From Methylotenera mobilis JLW8 (lineage in GTDB: Bacteria; Pseudomonadota; Gammaproteobacteria; Burkholderiales; Methylophilaceae): a stretch of 64,000 bases of DNA. This document shows, one piece after another, positions 39,922-52,433 of the stretch. The stretch covers positions 1,674,001 to 1,738,000 of the forward strand of contig NC_012968.1 in NCBI RefSeq assembly GCF_000023705.1, in the 5' to 3' direction. The notes beneath the pieces were generated by a model. That model was given only the letters and a program-made list of their open reading frames with translations, was not told the origin of the DNA and searched no databases. Within the stretch, counting starts at the first letter, position 1. The number at the start of each line of letters is the position of its first letter. A program made the position numbers and the translations under genes.

Positions 39922-40734
39922 TTAAAACGTACGTTTAATATATCCTATGAAACGGTCGTTACCAGTCTCCCAGCCCTTAGCGTCAACATACCAGCTATCA
40001 CTAGCATTGGTGGTAGTGTAGTTAAGGCCGGCATTCCAGCCTGTGCTGTTTGCAATGCTAAAATCTTTATTCACGCCTACTAGCCAATCAGTATAGTTTG
40101 CCTGCGAATAATGTTGCACAGTCTGGCGACCAACATGCATCAATAAATTCAGGTCGGCAATTGGCAGTTTGCAGTTGAAGTTTAACTCGGTATAGCCTGA
40201 GCCACGTGAGTTGCCGTTACCAGCGTAGTTATTGTTAATGCCAAAGAAATTAGACAGTGCGTAAGAGTGCTTTAATGTGAGATTCTCATACATTAACGCA
40301 GCATTAATTTCAGTAGTGTTAGCAGAGTCCCCCCTGTTAGTAGTACCGTGGCCAGCGTGTTTACCGTGAGGATAGAAGTACTCTATAAAGCCCACACTCA
40401 TGCTTAATTTGTCAGTTAAGGGCTGTACATAGCCACCATACAGGTCTTTTTCGACCGTATTGCCATACACTGCTCCACTATCTATATTGGTTGCCCAGAT
40501 GCCGAGATAAAAACCGCTGCTGTGTGTGTAGTCAAACCCGCCCTGTATCGAGCCGTGTTCTCTAGTGTAAGAAATGCCACGGAATGTGTAGTCGCTGAAG
40601 AATCCAACGTTTGTTGTTAATGTATGTGGTGAAGATTTTTCGCTCACCTCTTCAGCAGCATAAGCCTGCGGCATCGCACAGAAAACCGGGGCTAATATTG
40701 CTGTTTGTATTGCCGATTTCAATAAGTGTTTCAT
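39922..40734 (-). CDS. TorF-family (Gcw_chp) putative outer-membrane porin
   Basis: From the ATG at 40734 it has 270 residues. An earlier start at 40836 is open, but AAGGGGAATT just before 40734 and the signal peptide that follows (MKHLLKSAIQTAILAPVFCA, cut near YAAEE) decide the start. The mature protein begins with the family pattern LTTNVGFFSDYTFRGISY and is a run of amphipathic beta strands ending in Phe, as outer-membrane barrels do. Substrate unknown. Divergent from the cytochrome c gene next to mauN. Confidence 0.82.
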   Translation of the reverse strand: MKHLLKSAIQTAILAPVFCAMPQAYAAEEVSEKSSPHTLTTNVGFFSDYTFRGISYTREHGSIQGGFDYTHSSGFYLGIWATNIDSGAVYGNTVEKDLYGGYVQPLTDKLSMSVGFIEYFYPHGKHAGHGTTNRGDSANTTEINAALMYENLTLKHSYALSNFFGINNNYAGNGNSRGSGYTELNFNCKLPIADLNLLMHVGRQTVQHYSQANYTDWLVGVNKDFSIANSTGWNAGLNYTTTNASDSWYVDAKGWETGNDRFIGYIKRTF

Positions 40735-41043
40735 AATTCCCCTTGGTAACCTCCATAGAAAAATACTTAAATAAAAAGTGTTTACTGCTACAGCTTTACT
40801 GCCAGGAAATTGGGAACAAGTTGCATCGGGTAACATGCAAATGAAACCACCAACACCTCGCTACCATGTTGATTTATAGGTGTAACTATTATGGGCGCGC
40901 AAAAAAACGTACGTTATACAAAAACGGCAACACACGCTGCTTTATCCACCTGTTTTAGCTACGGTTATGCCGATTTTTGTCATCATGCTGTAATAGTCAC
41001 GCCTACAATCAAGGCTCGAAATAACCTTGTGGAGTTTTTTATT

Positions 41044-41427
41044 ATGCGTAGTCAATTAACAGTGGCTTCAGAGCCAAGCACTGCTGCTCATACCAGCAAA
41101 AAATCATTTGTATCAAACATTATTCTGGCGGCAGCTTTAGGTTTGTCAGCACAACTTGCGCTAGCCGACGATGCCGTACCTGCGGGCGAAGCTCTGGCTC
41201 AAAAAGGTGGCTGTCTGATGTGTCATACCATGACAAAACGCAATGTGGGCCCTGCATTTAAAGATGTAGCTGCTGTATATAAAGGCCAAGATGTAGAAGA
41301 TAAATTGATTAATAAAATTAAAAAAGGCGGCCGCGGTAGTTGGGGCGTGCTACCTATGCCGCCTAACGAAGGCAAATTAACGGACGATGAGTTCAGAGAA
41401 GTCGTGCGCTGGATTAGAGCTATGTAA
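41044..41427 (+). CDS. Periplasmic class I c-type cytochrome
   Basis: 127 residues from ATG 41044. Signal peptide (helix SNIILAAALGLSAQLALA, cut before DDAV), then one haem c site CLMCH (about 56-60) with a distal Met in VLPMPPNEGKL (about 101), as in cytochrome c551/c552. An in-frame start at 40891 would add 51 residues ahead of the signal peptide and is rejected. It ends 284 bases from the mauN stop. No azurin or amicyanin gene is in the window, so this is a candidate electron acceptor, by position only. Confidence 0.88.
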   Translation: MRSQLTVASEPSTAAHTSKKSFVSNIILAAALGLSAQLALADDAVPAGEALAQKGGCLMCHTMTKRNVGPAFKDVAAVYKGQDVEDKLINKIKKGGRGSWGVLPMPPNEGKLTDDEFREVVRWIRAM

Positions 41428-41710: not shown

Positions 41711-42571
41711 TCATTTTTTTACAATTGGGATACCGCGAAATGAACTGACACGGCTTAGATCTAACTTCATAGACAATGACCCGCTGCCACATTTATCGAC
41801 GCACGCACCGCAGCGGGTACAATCACTGTCAGTAACCGTCACGGCTTTCTGAGCAACCAAAGGCGCTAGCACATGAGGCTCAGGACAGACCTTGATACAG
41901 TCGGTACAGCCTGAACATGCATCTGTCTTGACTGCCATGATACGCAGCCTGCCATAATGCCCTATCCATCGGTAAAAAGCGCCCACTGGACAAAGATGGC
42001 CGCACCAGCCACGACGCGTCACGAGAAAATCAAACATAAACAATGCTGCTAGGAATGTGAGCCCCGCGGCAGAGGTCCACATAATTTCACGCTGCAACAA
42101 CGTGATTGGATTGATATCTTCCCAAGCAAGCGTGCCGGTGATCACAGACAGCACTAGCGCCATGACCAGTAGTACTGACCGCAAATCTTGCGACATGGTC
42201 AGGTTGCCCTTAATCTTAAACTTCTGCCGTAGCCAGTACGCAGCATCGGTCATCATATTGATGGGGCACACCCAGCTACAATAGATGCGACCGCCAAAAA
42301 ATGCATAAAATCCTCCCACAATGGCTGCCCCGATTAGCGCAGTCTGCGCTAGAGGAGCACCTGCAAGCCATGATTGCAGCAGCACAAACGGGTCAGTAAG
42401 CGGTACATTCCAGAACCAGAGACTAGAAGAAAGATTACCATGCGCGATACGCCCCACTTCCGGAATATCAACCACAAAAGCAAGCACGATCAGAATTTGC
42501 AGCGTACGACGCATTAGTAGCCAGCGATGGCTTTTAACGTAAGAAACTATTCGTCGGAATAAATTCACCAT
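41711..42571 (-). CDS. mauN: MauN, membrane-bound polyferredoxin (NapH-like)
   Basis: Ferredoxin-type membrane protein of the methylamine utilisation cluster. 286 residues with four or five membrane helices (first at about 24-38), CPIN motifs CSWVCPINMM (about 99) and CGHLCPVGAF (about 190) as in NapH, then two [4Fe-4S] motifs CSGCTDCIKVCP (about 219) and CTRCGACVDKC. Last gene of the mau operon, overlapping the mauM stop by one base. Its role in electron transfer is inferred from NapH. Confidence 0.93.
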   Translation of the reverse strand: MVNLFRRIVSYVKSHRWLLMRRTLQILIVLAFVVDIPEVGRIAHGNLSSSLWFWNVPLTDPFVLLQSWLAGAPLAQTALIGAAIVGGFYAFFGGRIYCSWVCPINMMTDAAYWLRQKFKIKGNLTMSQDLRSVLLVMALVLSVITGTLAWEDINPITLLQREIMWTSAAGLTFLAALFMFDFLVTRRGWCGHLCPVGAFYRWIGHYGRLRIMAVKTDACSGCTDCIKVCPEPHVLAPLVAQKAVTVTDSDCTRCGACVDKCGSGSLSMKLDLSRVSSFRGIPIVKK

Positions 42572-43269
42572 TACCTACGTCCCATTGCATTAGTGCCAGA
42601 AATACCTAAGCCAAGTTCGCGCGGCAATACGCGTATCGTCGCTTCGGACAGTACACAGTGTTTTTCGCAGGTGCCACAACCAGTACATTTATCTGGGTCA
42701 ACCGTCGGAATCTGTAATACACCACGCTCGTTTTGAATCGGTTTTAGCGAGATCGCTTCACCACGGATCGGACATACACGGACACAGATACTACAGGTCA
42801 GGCCTTTATAATTTAGGCAGTTTTCATGGTCTACCAGCACCGCCACACCCATATCCGCCTTGCGGATATCAGTCAACAGAGGATCAAGCGCACCAGTTGG
42901 ACAGGCTTTTACACAAGGAATATCAGTGCACATGCGGCAAGGGTCCTGGCGTGCTACAAAAAATGGAGTGCCCAATGGTGCAGGGTCAGCCCAAGTTGCC
43001 AGTTTGAGGATATCGTAGGGGCAATCTTTGACACATAAGCCGCAGCGGATGCAGGTTGAATCAAACTCTTTTTCCGGCAATGCGCCAGGCGGCCTGAGAA
43101 TTTTGGCGGCTCGTGCAGGTCGAGAAAAAATAGCCGCCTGCGCAACCATTGTGCCTAACACAGCCACACCGGCATGACGGAATATGCGTTTAATGGCCTT
43201 CCTGCGCTCTGGATTTTCTATCGCAGATTTGACAGCAACTGACACTTTTTCGGGTACATGCTCAGTCAT
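42571..43269 (-). CDS. mauM: MauM, ferredoxin-type protein (NapG-like)
   Basis: 232 residues, four [4Fe-4S] motifs: CIRCGLCVKDCP (about 74), CRMCTDIPCVKACP (about 110), CLNYKGLTCSICVRVCP (about 149) and CTGCGTCEKHC (about 191). N-terminal ERRKAIKRIF followed by a hydrophobic stretch and ARA looks like a twin-arginine signal, as in NapG. Probably exported folded, with its clusters, and partnered by MauN. Its exact role in methylamine oxidation is unsettled. Confidence 0.93.
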   Translation of the reverse strand: MTEHVPEKVSVAVKSAIENPERRKAIKRIFRHAGVAVLGTMVAQAAIFSRPARAAKILRPPGALPEKEFDSTCIRCGLCVKDCPYDILKLATWADPAPLGTPFFVARQDPCRMCTDIPCVKACPTGALDPLLTDIRKADMGVAVLVDHENCLNYKGLTCSICVRVCPIRGEAISLKPIQNERGVLQIPTVDPDKCTGCGTCEKHCVLSEATIRVLPRELGLGISGTNAMGRR

Positions 43270-43321
43270 CTCTTGCTCCTATCTTATCTTTATACTGCAG
43301 TCATCAATCAGTTTGGCTTAA

Positions 43322-43843
43322 TCACTCACTAATTATCATGTTTGCGCGTATCACCGGATGGATCCAGCACCGGAACACATACTCGCCTTCGGCATCATCC
43401 GGTACCGTCCAGCTGACAATATCTCCTGGAATCTGAATTTCAAGATTGACCACAGTACCGTCAGGATAGGTCACATAAAGTGCATGTGTAATATTGGAAC
43501 GGTTTTCAATCTCGATACGATCTTTGCGTTTTGGCACAAATGACCACGCCTCAAGCTCGTGATGCGACAGCGTCATTTTGTGCAAGGTTGCCCCTGGCGC
43601 TAATGGCGTAACTACACCCTGCTCCGCTCTGGACGGGTAAACCTTGCTTGAAGCATCACGTTTTGGAACATCATGACCGGTATGATCCTGCTCAGCATAT
43701 GAACTCGTGCATACGCCCAGCATCATGGCTGCCATCAAGGTAACTATTGATAATTTACGCCGCAACACACTAGCGGAATACGAAACGCCCGTTTTATGTG
43801 TATTGATAGCTACATGCCACAATCTTCCTAATATCTGCTTCAT
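43322..43843 (-). CDS. mauL: MauL, cupredoxin-like periplasmic protein
   Basis: 173 residues from ATG 43843, supported by GAAGGTGATG just upstream; an ATG at 43873 adds ten residues but lacks a ribosome site. A signal peptide with core VTLMAAMMLGVCTSSYA precedes the mature part. The C-terminal half is a cupredoxin-type fold (WTVPDDAEGEYVFRCWIH), with Cys and His in FRCWIHPVI near the end. MauL is required for TTQ biogenesis in some methylotrophs; mechanism unknown. Two bases separate the upstream start from mauG. Confidence 0.9.
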   Translation of the reverse strand: MKQILGRLWHVAINTHKTGVSYSASVLRRKLSIVTLMAAMMLGVCTSSYAEQDHTGHDVPKRDASSKVYPSRAEQGVVTPLAPGATLHKMTLSHHELEAWSFVPKRKDRIEIENRSNITHALYVTYPDGTVVNLEIQIPGDIVSWTVPDDAEGEYVFRCWIHPVIRANMIISE

Positions 43844-43875
43844 CACATCACCTTCAATTCTTGCTGTACGCATAC

Positions 43876-44898
43876 TTACTGTGGCATCCGAGGATAATCC
43901 ACCTTCAAGGCGCCGCCATCCAGCGTCTTAACAAATTCAATCAGTGATAATCTTTCCGCGTCGGTCAATTCAAATGGTTTCATTTCCAGCGAACGGCTCT
44001 TGCGGTCAATACCACCCTTTTCATAGTGCTTGACCACTTCGTCCAAACCACTCATCGCACCATCGTGCATATATGGACCATTAATCGGCAGATCACGTAA
44101 CGATGGTGTTTTGAACGCATACTGCATGAGCGTTACTTGCGGCGGCACTTTTGCACCGCGGCCAATATCTTCAGTACGCAGGCCGATATCATGGAAACTA
44201 TCATCGGTAAAACGCCACGACTTATGGCAGGAGGCACATTGCGCCTTGCCTGTGAATAATTTAAAGCCATGTTTAGAACGCTCGCTAATCGCGCTTTCAT
44301 CACCAGCAACCCAGCGGTCAAAAGGCGCTGCATTAGAAACCAGTGTTCTCTCGAAGCTCGCTAGCGCTTCGGTAATTCGCTTTTTGTTCACCGTAGCATC
44401 ACCAAACGCCTGTGTAAACAAAGGACGGTATCCTTGTATGCTTTCCAAGCGTGCTACTACGCTAGGCATATCAAAATTCATTTCATGCGGGGTAGTAATC
44501 GGCAGCACGGCTTGTGCCTCTAAAGAGCCGGCACGGCCATCCCACATCAAGGCTGAAAGCCACGCACTATTGAGCACGGTTGGTGTGCGGCGTGCGTTTG
44601 CTACATGTTCTGATCCCAACGGGCGTAAACGACCATCGCTCCAGCGCTTATCTGGCGCATGGCAGGTGGCACAAGACATACTATTATCACGAGATAGACG
44701 CGCATCAAAAAACAGCGTCTTACCTAAATTTGCTTTATCTTCCGTCAACGGATTAGATGAAGGTGACGGAATTCCCTCCGGCCGGCGAAAATCGTCTTTT
44801 GTAACGATTTCGCCAGCGTGTGAAATACCCGCCACCGCCATATTCATGACGAGAAGCAGGCCCATCAAGCGTGTACCGGGCCTAGTTCTCATTTTCAT
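43876..44898 (-). CDS. mauG: MauG, di-haem TTQ-synthesising enzyme
   Basis: Periplasmic di-haem enzyme that completes tryptophan tryptophylquinone on pre-methylamine dehydrogenase via a bis-Fe(IV) state. From ATG 44898 it has 340 residues; a TTG at 44919 is open but would overlap mauA. Signal peptide ends near ISHAGE. Haem motifs CATCHAPD (about 75) and CASCHKSW (about 220) are intact, and [11 protein letters not shown] supplies the Tyr region near the high-spin haem. Starts one base after the mauA stop. Confidence 0.95.
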
Positions 44899-44899
44899 T

Positions 44900-45469
44900 T
44901 TAGCTAGCCTTACCAACAACTGGTGAGATAGTGCAGTGATATGTCATATCATCATTTTCAGCACCGAAACACCAAACGATGTCGTTGTTGAACTCTGGAC
45001 GATACACTGGCAATTCACCGTGTGTATTGAAGCAACCGCAACGAGTAGCAGTTTGTTTACCACAACAGTCACGGTACGCAATCAGGTAAGTTTGACCATC
45101 ACCTGGGTTAAAGCAACTAGCAACCCATGAGCTTGGTGATAGACTTGAACCTGGTGGGCAAGATGTCAAGCTACCACCACTACAATCACAAATTTGGCCG
45201 TCGATAGAACAATGACGCCAGTAGTCACAAGCCTGTGGATCTTTATCCTGAGGCACCCAACCACGTTCACGGGTCATGCTGTTAACACTAGCTGCCTGTG
45301 CTTCACCAAGACCAAGACGAGCGCGACGGTCAACTGGTAGCAAAGGTAACAGTGCTGAACCTGCTAATAACATACCTACTTTGCCGATAAAGCTACGGCG
45401 GCCAGTGTAATTGGCCGTGGTACGCGCCAATTTCTCAATGGTAGAATCAAATCGTTTGTTTTCTTTCAT
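44900..45469 (-). CDS. mauA: Methylamine dehydrogenase small (TTQ) subunit
   Basis: Catalytic subunit oxidising methylamine to formaldehyde and ammonia in the periplasm. 189-residue precursor with a twin-arginine signal ([11 protein letters not shown], residues 22-32; cut near QAAS). The TTQ pair is Trp115 (SSWVASC) and Trp166 (IVWCFG), 51 apart as in Paracoccus (57/108), and Asp134 (YRDCCG) matches the catalytic Asp76. Twelve cysteines remain for six disulfides. All essential residues are present. Confidence 0.98.
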
Positions 45470-45510
45470 TTTGTTTTCCTTATCCTAAATATTGGAACTT
45501 TTAGACTAAA

Positions 45511-46143
45511 TTAATGAACACCTTTGTTTTCGTCTGCGTGCAGTAACGGAGTCGTGCTGTGCTTCATGAAGTCCTGTAAAGTTGAATGACCTTCACGAAC
45601 TGTCTCAAACAAGCTTTCAACATGCTCACGTGTATTGCACAGGCCTTTGCCAAGAATCACGCCATCTGCATCAAGCAACACGCCATAAGGAACTTTAGAA
45701 ATCTGATAACGGATACCAATTTCAGCTGAAACAACATAGCGCTCATTTTGCAGCGGATGGTTACGTAAGAACTCAAGGTGTTCAGCACGTGTACCATCAC
45801 TAATCAGCACTACATCAGCACCTTCTGCAGCAGCTACTGAACGAATAATCGGCAGCAACTTAGCGCAGATAGGGCAGCTTGGACCAGTAAACATCAACAG
45901 GCTTGGACGGTTTGGTGTCACCGCACGACCAACTGTAATCGGTGCACCGTCAAACGTCGTCAGACTGAACACCGGTGAGCGCTCGCCGACTTCAGGGCCG
46001 TTGTCGAGCAACATCGCACCCAGCGGAGCTGAACGCTCGTGTAACAGACCAATTTGTCGTATAACGCCAAGCATCAATGCTGCCAGGCTTAAGAATGCGC
46101 ACCACAACAACACATTCGATGCAATAATAAATCCAGTATTCAT
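45511..46143 (-). CDS. mauD: MauD, thioredoxin-like maturation protein
   Basis: 210 residues: an N-terminal membrane anchor (about 5-25) and a periplasmic thioredoxin fold with the redox motif SCPICAKLLP (CPIC, about residue 90). Needed for correct disulfide formation in the small subunit, which has six disulfides. Encoded between mauE and mauA. GGAGAATAG precedes the ATG. Confidence 0.95.
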   Translation of the reverse strand: MNTGFIIASNVLLWCAFLSLAALMLGVIRQIGLLHERSAPLGAMLLDNGPEVGERSPVFSLTTFDGAPITVGRAVTPNRPSLLMFTGPSCPICAKLLPIIRSVAAAEGADVVLISDGTRAEHLEFLRNHPLQNERYVVSAEIGIRYQISKVPYGVLLDADGVILGKGLCNTREHVESLFETVREGHSTLQDFMKHSTTPLLHADENKGVH

Positions 46144-46164
46144 TTCTATTCTCCTATGTATAAA

Positions 46165-46713
46165 CTAACTTTTTTTGGCACGTGAGTCGTGTAAACCCAC
46201 GATTAAATCTGCAGCAAGATAAAGCATCGCAAACATCGCGGCACCAGCTACACCAACCACTACTGACTCCCATGTCATTGCTGACAAACTAACAGTGACA
46301 TTAGCGGTGAAGAGACTCACTGCGGCGAGTGCAAGGGCACGCATGACGTGAAACATGCCAATGCGGCTCACACTTGTCGGGCGACGTACGCAACCACAGT
46401 CAATGTGGGTGCGGCCACGTCCGACATTAATCGCGAGTGCCATTGCAAACATCATAAACAGGCCTGCCGCTACCCACGCAGCCACCTCGCGCGCTGGCGG
46501 CACCAGCAATGCTATGGCGCTGCCAAGCTCTAACCAAGGTAGAAGCTTCGCGAATGGGGCGACCATGAAGGAAGGAAGCAGCCGGTAATTTGCAACCACC
46601 CCCTGAAACTCATCTGCATTGCGGATTTTTGGAATTGCAGCCGCAGCCAAAACAAGTGCCAGGAAAAGTGAAGCAAACACCGGAACAATCGGGTCATTAA
46701 TCAGCCAGTTCAT
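46165..46713 (-). CDS. mauE: MauE, membrane protein for methylamine dehydrogenase maturation
   Basis: 182 residues with about five membrane helices and a DoxX/MauE-type layout. A cysteine pair in IDCGCVRR (about 108) suggests it passes electrons to MauD, by analogy with DsbD/VKOR-like partners. Lies seven bases after mauB and 21 before mauD. Known as required for stable enzyme in Paracoccus. Confidence 0.94.
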
Positions 46714-46720
46714 GATTTAC

Positions 46721-47947
46721 TCACTTATCCATCGTAACGATAATTTGAGGAGCTTTACCCATCTCGTCCATTGATGCCAACTGCTTACCGCCAATCGCGT
46801 CAAAGGTATAGATGATTTTGTGCTCAATTGAAGCCGCAATCAGCGTAGGATTTTTGTCCTGAGTCACAGCAATAGAATCAATCGCATGTTTCAGGTCAAT
46901 ACGGCGCAAACGTTTACCGGTTGTACCATCAGCTACCACTACAAAACGGCTAGGTAATTTGTGCGTCCATTTAGCGCGTTGGTCTGCAAGCAGATAGATT
47001 TCGTTACGCTCTTTATGGAAAGCAATTGGTTGCCAGCCACCTGGGCCCCACTTATCTTTCTTCTCTTTATCAGTGAAAATCTCGATTGGTTTCAAGAATT
47101 CAGCACCAGAATCAGACAACTTAGCCTGGAAGATCTTACCTTCGTAAGTTGGCCATACTAGACGACCAGCTGAGTTTGAGTAGTACGGGTTATTGTGTAG
47201 ATACTCGTTCTCGGCATGGAATACTTTAGTATTTTTCTGCTTAGAGTTACCTTGGTTGTCATAAGTCACCTGCAGCAATGAACCATCACGACAGTGCATG
47301 AAGAAGTTTTGCTTAGCAGCTGGGAAAACGTGATAACAATCTGGAACAGGCATAGTCTTCACATACTTCTTGGCTTCCAGATCAACCAGACCCACGCCAG
47401 ATGATGGTGAGAACTGCTGAATCAGCATGTATTTGTCATCAACACTCAAAGACGCCGTACGTTCCATTAAACCCGTTAAAAAGCGGATTTCAGGAATATC
47501 AATATCTGCAACTGCCTCAAGTGTTTGTGGATCATGCAATCTCACGTAGTCATCTCGCTTACCATGAGCAATACGATCGTAAGTTGTATTAGCCATACCT
47601 ACAAACTTAGGGCTTGACATCACATGCGGCAGTTTGCCGCCATCGATCAAACCGTGCATTTGCAGTTTGTTATCATTAGCGCCCATGACATACGTTTGAG
47701 AAGTCATGTTGAAGTGACCAGGGTCAATCACGTAAAAACGCTTAGCATCAACAGGTGGCGCTTTTGCAACTGACAAATTGTCAATCTTTAGGCTGCCAAC
47801 TGCGGCAAGCTGTTTTGGCACAGCTTTTTGATCTTCAGCAAACGCAGGTTGCGCTGCCACCAACAAAGCGGCGATTGCCAACTTGCCTGCAACGCTAGCT
47901 GTTAGCCCGCGCTTTCCGTTTGTTGATTGATTATTTAAAGTAATCAT
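46721..47947 (-). CDS. mauB: Methylamine dehydrogenase large subunit
   Basis: Non-catalytic alpha subunit, a seven-bladed propeller that holds the TTQ subunit in an alpha2beta2 enzyme. 408-residue precursor; signal peptide core SVAGKLAIAALLVAAQPAFA cut before EDQK, apparently Sec type. The mature part has the family stretches YVIDPGHFNMTSQ, FSPSSGVGLVDL and NNPYYSNSAGRLVWPTYEG. Second gene of the operon, 61 bases after mauF; GGAGAG lies before the ATG. Confidence 0.97.
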   Translation of the reverse strand: MITLNNQSTNGKRGLTASVAGKLAIAALLVAAQPAFAEDQKAVPKQLAAVGSLKIDNLSVAKAPPVDAKRFYVIDPGHFNMTSQTYVMGANDNKLQMHGLIDGGKLPHVMSSPKFVGMANTTYDRIAHGKRDDYVRLHDPQTLEAVADIDIPEIRFLTGLMERTASLSVDDKYMLIQQFSPSSGVGLVDLEAKKYVKTMPVPDCYHVFPAAKQNFFMHCRDGSLLQVTYDNQGNSKQKNTKVFHAENEYLHNNPYYSNSAGRLVWPTYEGKIFQAKLSDSGAEFLKPIEIFTDKEKKDKWGPGGWQPIAFHKERNEIYLLADQRAKWTHKLPSRFVVVADGTTGKRLRRIDLKHAIDSIAVTQDKNPTLIAASIEHKIIYTFDAIGGKQLASMDEMGKAPQIIVTMDK

Positions 47948-48008
47948 ATTCTCTCCAGACCTTATTAATAATTGTATAAATTCACTTCTGAATCAAAACC
48001 ACCGGCTA

Positions 48009-48863
48009 TCAAATGAATAGCAGCGTAAGTGCTGCAGACCCAATAGAAAGCAAGAGGAACCCATCTACTTCAACTGCGCGTTCTTGCCAACGAGCAAGCC
48101 AAGCCTGAGCAGCCTGATTGCTAACTGGAAAAAAGTTGATAGCTACTGGCAAGCAGCGGCCAATGTTGAAGATAGCGAATATCGTGATAGCCGTTTGCAC
48201 GTCACCACTAAACAGCGCTACACCAGTGACGATGTAAAGCATTGGTGTTTGCACATAGGTCAGGTAGTTCATGCCTAATGCAAAGCCATACAACAAACCA
48301 ATCACCCAAGAACTGAAGCGGTAACGTGCGTCATGTGGCACTTGTGCGCGGCGCTGTGGATATGGCATCTTCAGGAAACCGAACTGATGCACACCATAAC
48401 CAATCGCCAGCACAGACATGCCTGCTACCATGTAGGTGAAAGGAAGTTGCTCAAACAGCAGCCAGCCTGCGAAGCCCAGTGCACCACCTAATACCAATGC
48501 ACCAACTGCATAACCTAGTACATGGGTTAAAAAGGTAGGCGTCCAACGTGCTACCGAACCGAACGAATAACGCCCAGCTGGTCGCAACAGACTCAAACTA
48601 GAATAGCCGCATGGCGACCAGGTTGATAAAAAGCCACCTACCAGTGCAAGCACGACAAACATCGCCGTTAATGCATCGGAAGTTGCCACGCTTGAATTTA
48701 GCATGCTGCCACCAACGACACCTGCGGCAATCGCTAACGCCATTGTTACAAAACGTACCGTACCTGAACGCGGCTCAGCAAAGCTGATCGCATCAGGCAC
48801 ACATGCAACGGCAGCGTTGCCTTGGGATGTCTGATACATTCCAGACCCTATACCCATTTTCAT
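48009..48863 (-). CDS. mauF: MauF, membrane protein of the methylamine dehydrogenase operon
   Basis: 284 residues with six or seven membrane helices of the CcdA/DsbD type, including the WSPCGYSSLSLLRPAGRYS segment (about 81-99). Required for active enzyme in Paracoccus and Methylobacterium; probably supports electron or disulfide supply to the periplasm. First gene of mauFBEDAGLMN here. A very strong ribosome site, AGGAGGAG, lies just before the ATG. Transcription starts from the promoter near 48922. Confidence 0.95.
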   Translation of the reverse strand: MKMGIGSGMYQTSQGNAAVACVPDAISFAEPRSGTVRFVTMALAIAAGVVGGSMLNSSVATSDALTAMFVVLALVGGFLSTWSPCGYSSLSLLRPAGRYSFGSVARWTPTFLTHVLGYAVGALVLGGALGFAGWLLFEQLPFTYMVAGMSVLAIGYGVHQFGFLKMPYPQRRAQVPHDARYRFSSWVIGLLYGFALGMNYLTYVQTPMLYIVTGVALFSGDVQTAITIFAIFNIGRCLPVAINFFPVSNQAAQAWLARWQERAVEVDGFLLLSIGSAALTLLFI

Positions 48864-48921: not shown

Positions 48922-48927
48922 AATATA
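48922..48927 (-). promoter_or_regulatory. -10 element of the mau operon promoter
   Basis: TATATT on the minus strand, 59 bases upstream of the mauF ATG. The hexamer 17 bases upstream is TACGGA, far from consensus and touching the proximal operator, as expected for a class II activator-dependent promoter. Confidence 0.6.
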
Positions 48928-48948: not shown

Positions 48949-49004
48949 TAGCAAGAATCGGCAAGCCATTAAGCCGCCAATCTCACTGTTGCCGATTTTT
49001 GCTA
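48949..49004. promoter_or_regulatory. mau operator module 1 (inverted pair)
   Basis: TAGCAAGAATCGGCA (48949-48963) and TGCCGATTTTTGCTA (48990-49004), inverted with one mismatch, 26 bases apart, 41 bases start to start. The proximal copy ends 21 bases from the mau -10. Probable binding site of the divergent AraC-type regulator. Confidence 0.75.
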
Positions 49005-49059
49005 CCAGTTTTATTTCTCATCCCAATCACGCTCAGTTATGCTTTTTACAAGCGCAAAA

Positions 49060-49089
49060 TAAAAAAAAAGCCGCACCCGAAGGCGCGGC
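49060..49089 (-). terminator. Rho-independent terminator inside the mau control region
   Basis: On the minus strand a GC-rich stem (GCCGC ... GCGGC, 49070-49089, GAA-type tetraloop region, one A-C mismatch) is followed by T9 (complement of 49061-49069). It ends a minus-strand transcript that starts upstream of the mauF promoter, so it cannot belong to mau or to the regulator. Confidence 0.85.
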
Positions 49090-49235
49090 CATAAAACTAG
49101 GCGTTATAAACGTTGGAGATGCCTAAATGAAAAGCTGTTAGCAATTCGATCAGTTTTAATAACCTGATAAATACTCCGTCTTCTATCTGTAAAGAACACT
49201 GCATTTAAAAACCCCGGTATTACTTAAAACTGACG
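49062..49235 (-). ncRNA. Candidate mau-coregulated small RNA (about 175 nt)
   Basis: Defined by the -10 TATAGT at 49241-49246 and the terminator at 49060-49089. The promoter geometry copies that of mauF: same operator, same 21-base distance. The RNA has a pyrimidine-rich CATCTCCAACG stretch (about 49110-49120) between TAGGC and GCCTA that could pair, leaving CUCC exposed, the kind of seed that blocks ribosome sites. It also contains a 35-codon ORF. Whether it acts as RNA, message or both is open. Confidence 0.6.
49097..49204 (-). CDS. Candidate 35-residue peptide in the mau-coregulated transcript
   Basis: ATG at 49202-49204, TAG at 49097-49099, filling the space between the predicted transcription start and the terminator stem. 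It begins MQCSLQIEDG and continues VFIRLLKLIELLTAFHLGI, which would form an amphipathic or membrane-seeking helix, ending SNVYNA. The ribosome site is weak (GGGG seven bases upstream, no GGAGG). The fit between two control signals is notable, but chance ORFs of this size are common. No family recognised. Confidence 0.35.
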   Translation of the reverse strand: MQCSLQIEDGVFIRLLKLIELLTAFHLGISNVYNA

Positions 49236-49240
49236 GGGAA

Positions 49241-49246
49241 ACTATA
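49241..49246 (-). promoter_or_regulatory. -10 element of the second mau-type promoter
   Basis: TATAGT on the minus strand, 21 bases from the proximal element of operator module 2, exactly as in the mauF promoter. The -35 position reads TACGTG (TACGGA at mauF), again non-consensus. Confidence 0.6.
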
Positions 49247-49267
49247 ACAATGCAGATGCAACTCACG

Positions 49268-49323
49268 TAGCAAGAATCGGCATACAGTTCACCCAAGCAT
49301 CTCGCTCTTGCCGATTCTTGCTA
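49268..49323. promoter_or_regulatory. mau operator module 2 (perfect inverted pair)
   Basis: TAGCAAGAATCGGCA (49268-49282) and TGCCGATTCTTGCTA (49309-49323), perfect 15-base inverted copies, 26 bases apart, 41 start to start. The identity with module 1 extends two further bases (CG) on the promoter side. Confidence 0.78.
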
Positions 49324-49602: not shown

Positions 49603-49617
49603 TGCCGTTTTTTGCTA
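49603..49617 (+). promoter_or_regulatory. Fifth, single copy of the mau operator element
   Basis: TGCCGTTTTTTGCTA differs from the module 1 distal copy by one base. It is oriented toward the regulator gene, 209 bases before its GTG. TAAAGT at 49638-49643 lies 20 bases beyond it and could be a weak -10, so autoregulation is possible. No inverted partner at 41 bases. Confidence 0.5.
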
Positions 49618-49743
49618 TCAATCCATATTTTTTGGAGTAAAGTCACTCTTGCTAACCTAGTATTTAATGCGTATCGGAGTATCGCAACCAATAAACCATT
49701 GAACGCTTTTTAAGATTAATTACAACGATAAGAATAATAAAAA

Positions 49744-49826: not shown

Positions 49827-50846
49827 GTGAATTTCCAGGAAGAGTTTCTGGGCATATCCCCTACGGGTGGTAGCCCTAAAATACATTTAGTTGAACGCAA
49901 AACCACGGATGTGCTAGAACAAGCGGACGCGCTGCCGTTCTGGTCGCAAGACTACACACAACTGAGTAAAGGCACTTTCTCGGGCGGACTGAGCAGTGTC
50001 ACGCATCACGGTGTGCAAGTGTTTCGCGAAACCATGAACCGAGCCGTTGACCAAATCGCGTTTGCACCAGCGGATGCCTACGTGATTGGCCTACCGACCA
50101 TCATTGAGGGCGATGCCTCATGGGGGCTGATGCCAGTCAAGCCCAACGCCATGATTACTCTGGATAAAAATGCTGAGTTGGTGTTTCGCACCTCTAACTT
50201 ATCAGAAATCACGGCAGCTGTTATTTCAGCACAACGCTTGGAAGAATATGCCGCCCAAGTGGAATGGATAGATCTGCGCAAAGCAATGGAAAGCGTGAAG
50301 CCAGTAGAGCGTATCTCTCCCGATGTCACCGCCCGTTTGCAAGCATCACTTACCGACGGCATGCACTATGTATCCAAGTTTCGCGATACAGAAGATGCAG
50401 AACAGATATGGCGCCTCTTCGAAAATGACCTGATGGCAACCTGTTTGCAAGCACTATTGCAGGCTAGCAATAGCCCTAATCACAGCCACGACCACCGCAT
50501 TCATCGCTATATCGTCAATCGCGTGCGTGACCTCACACTTTCAAGCTCAGGTTACCCGCTAACGATAGAAGAGCTCTGTATTAGCCTGCGCATCAGCAGG
50601 CGAACCTTGAATCATGCCTTTATCCGAGTACTAGGCATTACACCGGTTGCCTACATGCGTAATGTACGCCTGCACCGCATACGCGCAGAGCTGCAATCTG
50701 CACCGCACCAAGTCAGATACATTGCTAGCGTAGCTGCGAAATGGGGGTTCTGGCATATGAGCTTATTCTCGCGCTATTACCGCGAGTTATTTGGTGAAAC
50801 ACCAATAGAGACGCTGTCGCGCTCACGCGTCGGTGAACGGCACTGA
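49827..50846 (+). CDS. AraC/XylS-family regulator, probable activator of mau
   Basis: 339 residues: an N-terminal domain without clear cupin motifs (about 1-210) and a C-terminal AraC DNA-binding domain (about 225-335). The first helix-turn-helix is in TIEELCISLRISRRTLNHAF and the second near RYIASVAAKWGFWHMSLFSRYYRELFGETP. The shape resembles EutR-type regulators. GTG start at 49827 has GAGGAGA six bases upstream. Divergent from mauF with five copies of a shared element between. In Paracoccus the mau activator (MauR) is of the LysR type, so this would be a different solution. Confidence 0.88.
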   Translation: MNFQEEFLGISPTGGSPKIHLVERKTTDVLEQADALPFWSQDYTQLSKGTFSGGLSSVTHHGVQVFRETMNRAVDQIAFAPADAYVIGLPTIIEGDASWGLMPVKPNAMITLDKNAELVFRTSNLSEITAAVISAQRLEEYAAQVEWIDLRKAMESVKPVERISPDVTARLQASLTDGMHYVSKFRDTEDAEQIWRLFENDLMATCLQALLQASNSPNHSHDHRIHRYIVNRVRDLTLSSSGYPLTIEELCISLRISRRTLNHAFIRVLGITPVAYMRNVRLHRIRAELQSAPHQVRYIASVAAKWGFWHMSLFSRYYRELFGETPIETLSRSRVGERH

Positions 50847-50976
50847 GCAGAGCGCTTGCTTCCCCGCAGGGTGAAGTAAGTACTACCGTGTCAGCAGTTA
50901 TTTTATTTATACATTTGTTTATATATAGTCTTTGGCCACGAGTGGGCAAAGCGTTAACTTAGGAGGTCGTCGCATA

Positions 50977-51195
50977 ATGGGTTCTTTTAGTATCTGGCAT
51001 TGGTTGATCGTACTGCTGATTGTGGCATTGGTGTTTGGCACCAAAAAATTACGTAATATTGGCGGCGACGTTGGCGGCGCAGTCAAAAATTTTAAAGAAG
51101 CGGTCAATGAAGGAAAAAGCAGCCCTGCCCTCGAACATGGCAACACCGCAGGCGGGCAAACGGTAGAGCATGATGCTACTCAGGCCAGACATTAA
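50977..51195 (+). CDS. tatA: Sec-independent translocase protein TatA
   Basis: 72 residues starting [21 protein letters not shown] at ATG 50977, chosen because AGGAGG lies at 50961-50966 and the membrane helix begins at once; an open start at 50932 would put a polar stretch in front. Transmembrane helix 5-20, then [21 protein letters not shown], the family amphipathic helix. First gene of tatABC. Its stop lies in a 13-base tandem repeat. Confidence 0.95.
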
Positions 51196-51221
51196 GGCCA
51201 AACATAAAGGCTAGTCACTAA
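51183..51221 (+). repeat. Three-copy 13-base tandem repeat spanning the tatA stop
   Basis: GGCCAGACATTAA (51183-51195, ending in the tatA stop), GGCCAAACATAAA (51196-51208) and GGCTAGTCACTAA (51209-51221). Confidence 0.8.
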
Positions 51222-51244
51222 GTTACCCAGGACATCACTACATC

Positions 51245-51667
51245 ATGTTTGATATTGCATTCTCTGAGCTTATTGTTATCGGCGTGGTGGCACTCATTGC
51301 CATCGGCCCAGACAAACTACCCAAAGTGGCACGCACCGCAGGTCATCTGTTTGGCCGAGCGCAACGCTACATCAATGATGTCAAATCCGAAATGGACAAT
51401 GAACTGCGCATAGAAGAGCTACAGAAGCTGCAGAATGAGATACTGGAAAATACGCAAGCCGCACCTAAATACCAGGTAGGTCAGGTAATCCGCCATGGAC
51501 AGATTGTCCGCGATGACCTGCTTACCCATCATGATCAGCTCACCCATGATATAGACGAAAACGAAGAGCTAGCAGCAAAACCTGTACATCCCACCACGAT
51601 GACAGAGGGTGACTATATCCCAACACCACTCCGGTCACAGCCGCTAAATCAAGCGAAGGCTAGCTAA
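51245..51667 (+). CDS. tatB: Sec-independent translocase protein TatB
   Basis: 140 residues. N-terminal FDIAFSELIVIGVVALIAIGPDKLPKVART (read in pieces) is the TatB helix with the conserved Glu8 and GP hinge; a long amphipathic helix follows (about 25-75) and a variable polar tail. Receives Tat substrates with TatC. Ends one base before the tatC start. Confidence 0.95.
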   Translation: MFDIAFSELIVIGVVALIAIGPDKLPKVARTAGHLFGRAQRYINDVKSEMDNELRIEELQKLQNEILENTQAAPKYQVGQVIRHGQIVRDDLLTHHDQLTHDIDENEELAAKPVHPTTMTEGDYIPTPLRSQPLNQAKAS

Positions 51668-51668
51668 A

Positions 51669-52433
51669 TTGGGCATCGCAGATAACTTAGTCTCACATCT
51701 GGTTGAATTACGTAATCGCCTGTTACGTATAGCAGTGGTGTTGCTACTACTCATCATCGCCCTATTCCCGTTCGCCAACGACATTTACCACTTCCTAGCC
51801 ATGCCGCTACTAGCAAGCCTGCCTGCTGGCGGGCAGATGATTGCTACCGATGTCACCACGCCGTTCTTTGTGCCAATGAAGAGTGTGCTACTGACCGCCT
51901 TTGTTATCTCGCTACCGCACACCCTGTATCAGATATGGGCTTTTGTCGCGCCAGGGCTATACACGCATGAACGCCGTCTAATCTGGCCATTGGTATTTGC
52001 CAGCACTATACTTTTTCTATGCGGCATGGCATTTGCCTACTTTTTAGTGTTTCCGGTGATTTTCGGCTTTATTAGCAACACCGCGCCTGAAGGCGTGGCA
52101 GTGATGACAGACATCGGCAATTACCTAGACTTCACCATGTCGCTTTTTATCGCATTTGGCCTCGCATTTGAAGTGCCGGTTGCCGTAGTACTTCTAGTGA
52201 CAACAGGTGTAGTAAGCATTGCCAGCTTACGTGAAGCACGCGCCTACGTGCTAGTTGGTGCCTTTGTGTTAGGTGCCATATTCACACCGCCAGATGTGAT
52301 CTCTCAGTTTATGCTGGCGATGCCGCTATGGCTACTATATGAAGCAGGCATCCTCGTCGCTAGCTTGATGCAACGTACACAACAAACCAGTGCATCTACT
52401 GCCAGTAGCCAACTATTGCCATTGGATAAATAA
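51669..52433 (+). CDS. tatC: Sec-independent translocase protein TatC
   Basis: 254 residues with six membrane helices; recognises the twin-arginine signal. SHLVELRNRLLRIAVV at the N-terminus (with the Glu15-type contact in HLVELR), FVAPGLYTHERRLIWP and the conserved IFTPPDVISQFMLAMPLWLLYE are present. Start codon is TTG at 51669, one base after the tatB stop, so translation is probably coupled. No his genes adjoin, unlike the hisE-tatABC order frequent in betaproteobacteria. Confidence 0.96.
   Translation: MGIADNLVSHLVELRNRLLRIAVVLLLLIIALFPFANDIYHFLAMPLLASLPAGGQMIATDVTTPFFVPMKSVLLTAFVISLPHTLYQIWAFVAPGLYTHERRLIWPLVFASTILFLCGMAFAYFLVFPVIFGFISNTAPEGVAVMTDIGNYLDFTMSLFIAFGLAFEVPVAVVLLVTTGVVSIASLREARAYVLVGAFVLGAIFTPPDVISQFMLAMPLWLLYEAGILVASLMQRTQQTSASTASSQLLPLDK

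Follow-up and report, generated by a model that had tools for sequence, protein, structure and literature searches.

The window analysed here is a 64,000-nucleotide stretch of the Methylotenera mobilis JLW8 genome (G000:C1:1674001-1738000; the genome, G000, has 2,547,570 bases). Domain and profile matches together with gene position placed the mau operon, in the order mauFBEDAGLMN, on the minus strand at 41711..48863. Its first gene, mauF (48863-48009, minus strand), was named by position, and the names mauE and mauL are likewise assumed from position. The gene of an AraC/XylS-type, EutR-like regulator (49827..50846, plus strand; here araC) is divergent from the mau operon, and its HTH domain matches and co-occurrence with mauF make it the candidate activator. 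Beyond the other end of the cluster a Gcw_chp (PF09694) protein, which we take to be an outer-membrane porin, was encoded on the minus strand (39922..40734), and a c-type cytochrome on the plus strand (41044..41427), both recognised by Pfam. Behind araC are genes that are presumably tatA, tatB and tatC (window 50932-52433). Of the 26 close regulator loci compared below, 19, Methylophaga among them, had tatA or tatC matches next to araC, and these neighbours perhaps serve the export of mau proteins. Expression of the mau genes of this strain is reported to be much higher on methylamine than on methanol (PMC3728764); the main text of that paper contains no mention of AraC, intergenic or non-coding.

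A 15-base element had been described in preliminary form as two inverted pairs in the region separating mauF and araC. Re-reading of the sequence reproduced these pairs, here called P1 and P2, exactly: both have 41 bases start to start, the offset between them is 319 bases, and each proximal half-site is exactly 21 bases (N21) from a minus-strand −10 hexamer. The proximal half-site of P1 (TGCCGATTCTTGCTA on the minus strand) occupied 48949..48963, and its −10 TATATT (48922..48927, minus strand) is, by the N21 geometry, the predicted promoter of the mau operon; the inverted distal half-site was on the plus strand at 48990..49004. P2 showed its proximal half-site at 49268..49282 (minus strand), its distal half-site, found by sequence comparison, at 49309..49323 (plus strand), and the −10 TATAGT at 49241..49246 (minus strand), a candidate small RNA promoter by the same geometry. 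Three of the four half-site copies were identical, the copy at 48990 having one mismatch, and the two modules (63 nt each) were 76% identical.

Comparison of mauF upstream regions across the Methylophilaceae showed that the element, its spacing and N21 are conserved. Among the 187 genomes of the family searched, 15 carried mauF and all 15 had an operator pair upstream of it; a 16th match to mauF, in G039 (30% over 127 residues, with a stop), was taken as spurious. Outside the family the regulator was found in Methylophaga (Gammaproteobacteria), Thauera and Advenella, and the operator pair was present in 10 of 11 usable loci. The Methylophaga loci and one Thauera locus kept element, spacing and N21, with a weak −10 in Thauera; the locus counted as the one without a pair was Advenella (L142), where mau genes and regulator were present and no operator pair was found. 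Regulator loci of at least 51% identity in named genomes numbered 26 (L121-L145 and L148, with some genomes contributing a second locus). Of these, 23 matched at least one mau gene, L138 with a mauF fragment only, and 22 had the operator pair. No mau gene was found at L127, which lies at a contig edge, or at L139 and L141, where a second araC copy adjoins a porin-like gene; the loci without a pair at the threshold used were L127, L138, L140 and L142.

Geometry was counted in 25 upstream regions, 15 from the family and 10 from elsewhere, after L142 (no pair), L127 (contig edge) and L138 (mauF fragment only) had been dropped. For G063, where araC is not adjacent, 1500 bases upstream of mauF were taken. 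Many of the regions come from close relatives, and L135 and L143 from one MAG, so the counts are not independent. The 25 regions contained 40 pairs with a spacing of 39-42 in 14, 48-52 in 25 and 59 in one, the last being an alternative pairing in G172, and none at 43-47. Twenty rounds of 2-base-block shuffling of the same regions gave 0 pairs against these 40, which bears out the original remark that the arrangement is hard to get by chance. On the mauF side a hexamer with at least 4/6 matches to TATAAT stood at exactly N21 in 35 of the 40 pairs, whereas other offsets from 10 to 34 reached at most 5 of 40 each in these non-independent regions. On the araC side N21 was found in 11 of the 40 pairs (at most 6 at another offset), mainly in pairs adjoining araC. 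As the two spacings differ by about one helical turn, they suggest that both half-sites must occupy one face of the DNA.

An alignment of five genomes (G000, G110, G115, G172 and G117) showed where conservation lies. The P1 half-sites (with the −10) had 90% and 93% identical columns, the higher value belonging to the distal half-site, against 8% between them, and P1 was the best conserved promoter of the alignment. The P2 half-sites showed 55% and 73% (23% between them) and the P3 half-site, described below, 80%. The core of the candidate RNA and the mauF leader reached 64% and 60% respectively, the 5′ part of the RNA 9%, and the remaining stretches 6-18%.

The genome-wide search for the element in G000 returned P1 and P2 as the only matches to half-site-N21-TATNNT with no mismatch. 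With 0-1 mismatch, and among the matches listed (which do not include G172, G173, G183, G174 and G185), 10 of 12 mau genomes had this pattern versus 0 of 13 without mau; one such match was off the mau locus (G074:C8:177504). At up to 3 mismatches the half-site-N21 pattern gave a mean of 7.9 (5 to 14) in 15 mau genomes and 4.5 (2 to 10) in 15 other genomes, and the excess was about the number of mau-locus sites. Because the two ranges overlap, weak sites elsewhere are indistinguishable from chance. The lone 15-mer at up to 3 mismatches gave 120 and 118 matches genome-wide versus 53 and 62 for the reversed pattern, and these counts yielded no usable site list. Viral contigs scanned for TTTAGGCATCTCCAA contained 58 exact 15-mer matches, which were taken as chance.

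The regulator showed the same distribution as mauF. An orthologue of at least 54% identity was present in 15 of 15 mauF genomes and in 0 of the 172 other genomes of the family, and the next full-length match in the 187 genomes was 29%; HTH-only matches reached up to 46% in a few genomes. One genome without mauF contained regulator pieces of 48-66% identity with stops, a decayed remnant (G057:C1:1575824-1576085). The C-terminal HTH matched HTH_18 (1.5e-20) and HTH_AraC (2.8e-10), both over gathering score, which places the protein in the AraC/XylS type, and the HTH segments were nearly invariant in the 15 sequences. In the predicted structure (mean pLDDT 74.6) the N-terminal domain (about 20-134) is rich in strands; besides it the model has long helices and a helical C-terminal part, the latter fitting a double HTH. 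Among solved structures, matches were obtained only to the DNA-binding domain or C-terminal part, the best being 3mn2_A. The EutR profile (NF007522) matched over the full length (1.6e-43) with 149.1 bits, under the curated cut-off of 319, and the protein was therefore not accepted as a EutR equivalog.

These observations make the neighbouring AraC/EutR-like regulator the predicted ligand of the 15-mer, which would be its half-site, and they support the preliminary choice of this protein as candidate activator; in G063 the operator remains at mauF even with araC placed at the opposite end of the cluster. The conserved N21 geometry is compatible with predicted binding of an AraC-type protein at or next to −35. 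The link of the AraC protein to the half-sites is a prediction, and the elements might instead belong to another regulator. We consider this improbable, given the co-occurrence with mauF in all 15 genomes, the araC-facing sites at araC's own promoter, and the second araC copies of G065 and G075, which also adjoin an operator pair. At L149 and L150, AraC-type proteins of 32% identity to the regulator were found beside mauA-like (38-46%) and mauB-like (26-30%) genes. These are possibly aromatic amine dehydrogenase clusters, and the regulator subfamily may control TTQ amine dehydrogenases in general.

EutR is an AraC/XylS-type activator of ethanolamine use (PMC5821096), and the regulator of the window resembles it in its AraC type, in homology along residues 22-332, in the connection to amine catabolism and in a gene tied to the controlled operon. 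Unlike EutR, it adjoins methylamine dehydrogenase genes, and its predicted operator is built from inverted half-sites 4 or 5 turns apart.

A half-site of about 15-17 bp per subunit, with the −35-proximal half slightly over the −35, is also the arrangement of RhaS/RhaR and AraC of E. coli. The halves are inverted here as for RhaS, and the half-site starts TAGCA like AraC I1. The halves are separated by 24-27 or 33-37 nt, compared with about 16-17 for RhaS, and unlike in RhaS/RhaR and AraC, one symmetric operator could here serve divergent promoters. A literature search on AraC operator spacing found nothing. In Paracoccus denitrificans the mau cluster is controlled by MauR, a LysR-type regulator on which Delorme et al. 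reportedly worked in 1997. The regulator of the window is likewise predicted to control a mau cluster, and differs from MauR in being AraC-type; a LysR-type MauR was rejected for the window because the neighbouring regulator has AraC-type domains only. To our knowledge, the mechanism that activates methylamine dehydrogenase genes outside the Paracoccus type is not settled, and our literature search on mau regulation outside that type found nothing.

Beyond P1 and P2, the operator recurred beside araC and at the cluster's far end; these copies, together with the terminator and hairpin described below, are new with respect to the preliminary description. P3 consists of a half-site facing araC with 2 mismatches (49603..49617, plus strand), and TAAAGT (49638..49643, plus strand), read from the sequence at N20, is likely the araC −10. 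This hexamer stands at N21 in G172, G117 and others, and the mauF-facing partner of P3, decayed in the window, is present in G172 and G117. At the far side of the mau cluster stands P4, a degenerate pair flanked at N21 by −10-like hexamers, one on each strand. Its half-site facing the porin gene (40915..40929, minus strand) has 5 mismatches to the 15-mer and is followed by N21 and CATAAT (40893-40888); the half-site facing the cytochrome c gene (40968..40982, plus strand) has 3 mismatches, followed by N21 and TACAAT (41004-41009).

The far-end gene was preceded by a half-site, N21 and TANAAT in 10 of the 15 mau genomes, chosen from the matches of the half-site-N21 pattern scan. Pfam identified it as a cytochrome c in G000, G063 and G075; in G058 it is an azurin, and in the other six it was assigned by position. 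The upstream partner of P4 was recognisable in four of these ten genomes, three of which had CATAAT at N21 on the other strand, and a lone half-site was found in six. The far-end porin-like gene of G173 is preceded by an operator pair. Eight other genomes carried a gene between araC and mauF with its own operator pair facing it. This gene is Gcw_chp by Pfam in G183, was assigned by position alone in G055, and was matched by tblastn with the porin of the window in G058, G064, G065, G075, G056 and G074 (38-47%). In the window the porin-like gene is found at the far end of the cluster instead, opposite the cytochrome c gene, with P4 between them. At two loci (L065:2864-5243 and L069:4662-7024) a second regulator copy, separate from the one adjacent to mauF, was found next to a porin-like gene, and an operator pair lay between the two genes. 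Judged from these predicted sites, the enzyme, its likely electron acceptor, the porin-like protein, the regulator and the RNA appear to stand under one shared operator.

P1 and P2 had been read as two promoters answering one activator, both upstream of the mau operon. The comparative evidence supports a common activator; the implied part, that both serve the mau operon, found no support. A terminator-like hairpin and T run on the minus strand (49069..49090, scored in the window) lies between P2 and P1 in all five aligned genomes, and it is preceded by a conserved TTAGGC(A/G)TCTCCAA...GCCTA hairpin. The terminator is located on the minus strand of a divergent intergenic region, with no upstream minus-strand gene to terminate. 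With this conserved terminator and hairpin between the pairs, P2 should not drive mauF. P2 most likely makes a small RNA of about 170 nt (49062..49234, minus strand) with an exposed AUCUCCAA loop, its start being set by the −10 and its end by the terminator. The conserved 3′ core (49062..49132, minus strand) consists of the hairpin UUAGGC...GCCUAG with the loop AUCUCCAAC, then the terminator. For the predicted RNA (49234 to 49061) the folding energy is −49.2 kcal/mol, with a z of −3.9.

P2 is directed at mauF and the hairpin precedes the terminator in its RNA, so P2 might also be a second mau promoter with a regulated leader, in which hairpin and terminator act as an attenuator with read-through under some signal. 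We regard this as unlikely, since the best conserved promoter, P1, is downstream of the terminator, the 5′ part of the leader is unconserved (9% of columns), the single minimum-energy fold of the window sequence contains no antiterminator, and G172 and G117 would need read-through of two tandem units. P1 and P2 could alternatively be paired operators for DNA looping or tuning, with the P2 transcript a by-product; AraC itself loops DNA, and the P1-P2 distance is 319-322 in G000, G110, G115 and G172. The distance is 293 in G117, however, and the N21 −10 of P2 is retained in five of five genomes together with the conserved RNA core, which leaves little probability for this arrangement. A small peptide was also considered, as a 35-aa frame crosses the hairpin in G000 and a frame with LG(I/V/L)S crosses the core in all seven RNA copies. 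Start codon and length are unconserved, stops break the frame at differing places, and third codon positions in the core are no more variable than the other two; the peptide was rejected on these grounds and is very improbable.

For the small RNA behind P2, a covariance model built from seven copies found exactly those seven in the 187 genomes (73-86 bits; next 36.8), distributed over 5 of the 15 mau genomes. Each of the seven is preceded by an operator pair that has a −10-like hexamer at N21, and all retain the loop UCUCC(C)AA, with the extra C in one. In G172 and G117 a second copy stands in tandem behind P3 (tandem copies at L057:6838-7219 and L058:8219-8568, respectively). One tandem copy per genome has an altered loop, CUCUCCCAAA in G172 and GUCUCCAAA in G117, as if seeds were diversifying. 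In line with a trans-acting small RNA, the candidate has a predicted promoter of its own (consensus and conservation), an intrinsic terminator and no conserved reading frame. Covariation was found in three pairs changed on both sides, all in the terminator stem, and 27 of 500 shuffles were as good; conservation of the loop hairpin was too high for this test. As covariation is weak, the arguments for the RNA are its promoter, its terminator, its conserved sequence and its tandem copies.

Model matches at E ≤ 0.01 occurred in 48 of the 187 genomes, all at or below 37 bits apart from the seven copies. These weaker matches were taken as terminators, that of G107 alone having been read in sequence: it (36.8 bits) has ATCTCCAA and a terminator-like end but no TTAGGC stem, and was rejected. 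In 300 genomes of the order the model returned G000 and a weak match in G213 (40.2 bits), which was rejected as a homologue since the loop sequence is absent. In G173 the second pair is followed by a shorter predicted transcript that carries TTTTTAGGCCTCCCCAT and has a terminator; the syntenic model match there is weak (18.5 bits). No Rfam family reached its gathering score for the RNA, the best being sbrA (24.2 bits, cut-off 45) and suhB (24 bits, cut-off 41), and an Rfam scan of the whole window returned two tRNAs only.

An sRNA gene beside and under its regulator is also seen in SgrR/SgrS-type modules. An exposed CUCC-type loop followed by a terminator is likewise known from CcsR RNAs, which belong to the sRNAs with C-rich loops. 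The CcsR1-4 sRNAs are also named cuckoo RNAs (PMC10253847). Unlike SgrS and CcsR, the candidate RNA matches no Rfam family, is tied to methylamine use and is tandem in two genomes. Our literature search found no description of the operator or the RNA; an inverted repeat upstream of mauF may already be in print.

Taken together, the locus is probably a compact AraC-type methylamine regulon that comprises mau, the small RNA, araC and the cytochrome c and porin genes, with an RNA acting in trans. One regulator subunit would bind beside the −35 position and overlap it slightly, which would make a −10 at exactly N21 usable; the second half-site, inverted and 4 or 5 turns away on the same helix face, would probably be occupied by the dimer's other subunit. 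In response to methylamine, or to a signal that derives from it, the regulator would activate mauFBEDAGLMN (from P1), the approximately 170-nt small RNA (from P2), which would end ahead of P1 at its own terminator, araC itself (from P3) and the cytochrome c and porin genes at the far end (from P4). The small RNA would most likely act in trans, through the exposed AUCUCCAA loop, on Shine-Dalgarno regions of other mRNAs. As predicted from sequence, such a regulon would bring the enzyme and a likely electron acceptor together with a small RNA and a porin-like protein. For methylotrophs among the beta- and gammaproteobacteria it would offer a single candidate regulator, a single operator and an exact rule for the promoter. 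The candidate RNA would also make riboregulation in the choice of methylotrophs between C1 substrates testable.

Possible targets of the RNA were examined through its loop, as UCUCCAA is complementary to TTGGAGA. TTGGAGA-N3-9-ATG starts numbered 28 in G000, 21 in G117 and 32 in G172 (30 of the 32 were retrieved) versus 19, 9 and 9, respectively, for the reversed pattern. Proteins with complementary starts common to genomes are, as we assume from their sequences, XoxF, PqqC, RplN, RpmB, Frr and an ankyrin protein, others being unnamed; in G117 three copies of what we take to be pqqA were among them, besides ribosomal genes. RNA targets inside the mau locus showed nothing conserved. A doubtful proposal is that the P2 RNA, induced by methylamine, pairs through its loop AUCUCCAA with the UUGGAGAU Shine-Dalgarno of the methanol dehydrogenase gene xoxF, and in a looser way with those of pqqC and some pqqA copies. 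The mau regulon would in this way silence methanol oxidation for as long as methylamine is present, which, if true, would be a riboregulated substrate hierarchy in methylotrophs.

In a control of 30 genomes the xoxF start was obtained in 22 and not in 8, and TTGGAGA was found in 16 of the 22; 10 of these 16 were in genomes without mau. Of the six starts without TTGGAGA, those of G058, G055 and G174 have TATGGAGAT, and those of G137, G115 and G063 were probably read at the wrong ATG. The xoxF leader ACTTTGGAGATTAAT is identical in relatives without mau or RNA, e.g., G109, G114 and G120, and the RNA-xoxF duplex energies did not favour the RNA of the same genome, own pairs not being the strongest. 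The same leader without the RNA, and own duplexes that are not the strongest, give no evidence of co-evolution. In G117 the P2 RNA has GUCUCCAAA and xoxF has TTTGGAGAC, which is suggestive and a single event. What we take to be pqqA, a match of 23 aa, is multi-copy: G000 has 5 identical copies and G117 has 11, of which 8 are identical, dispersed across the genome or contigs. Multiple copies were also found in other Methylophilaceae genomes, one locus each (L366-L395).
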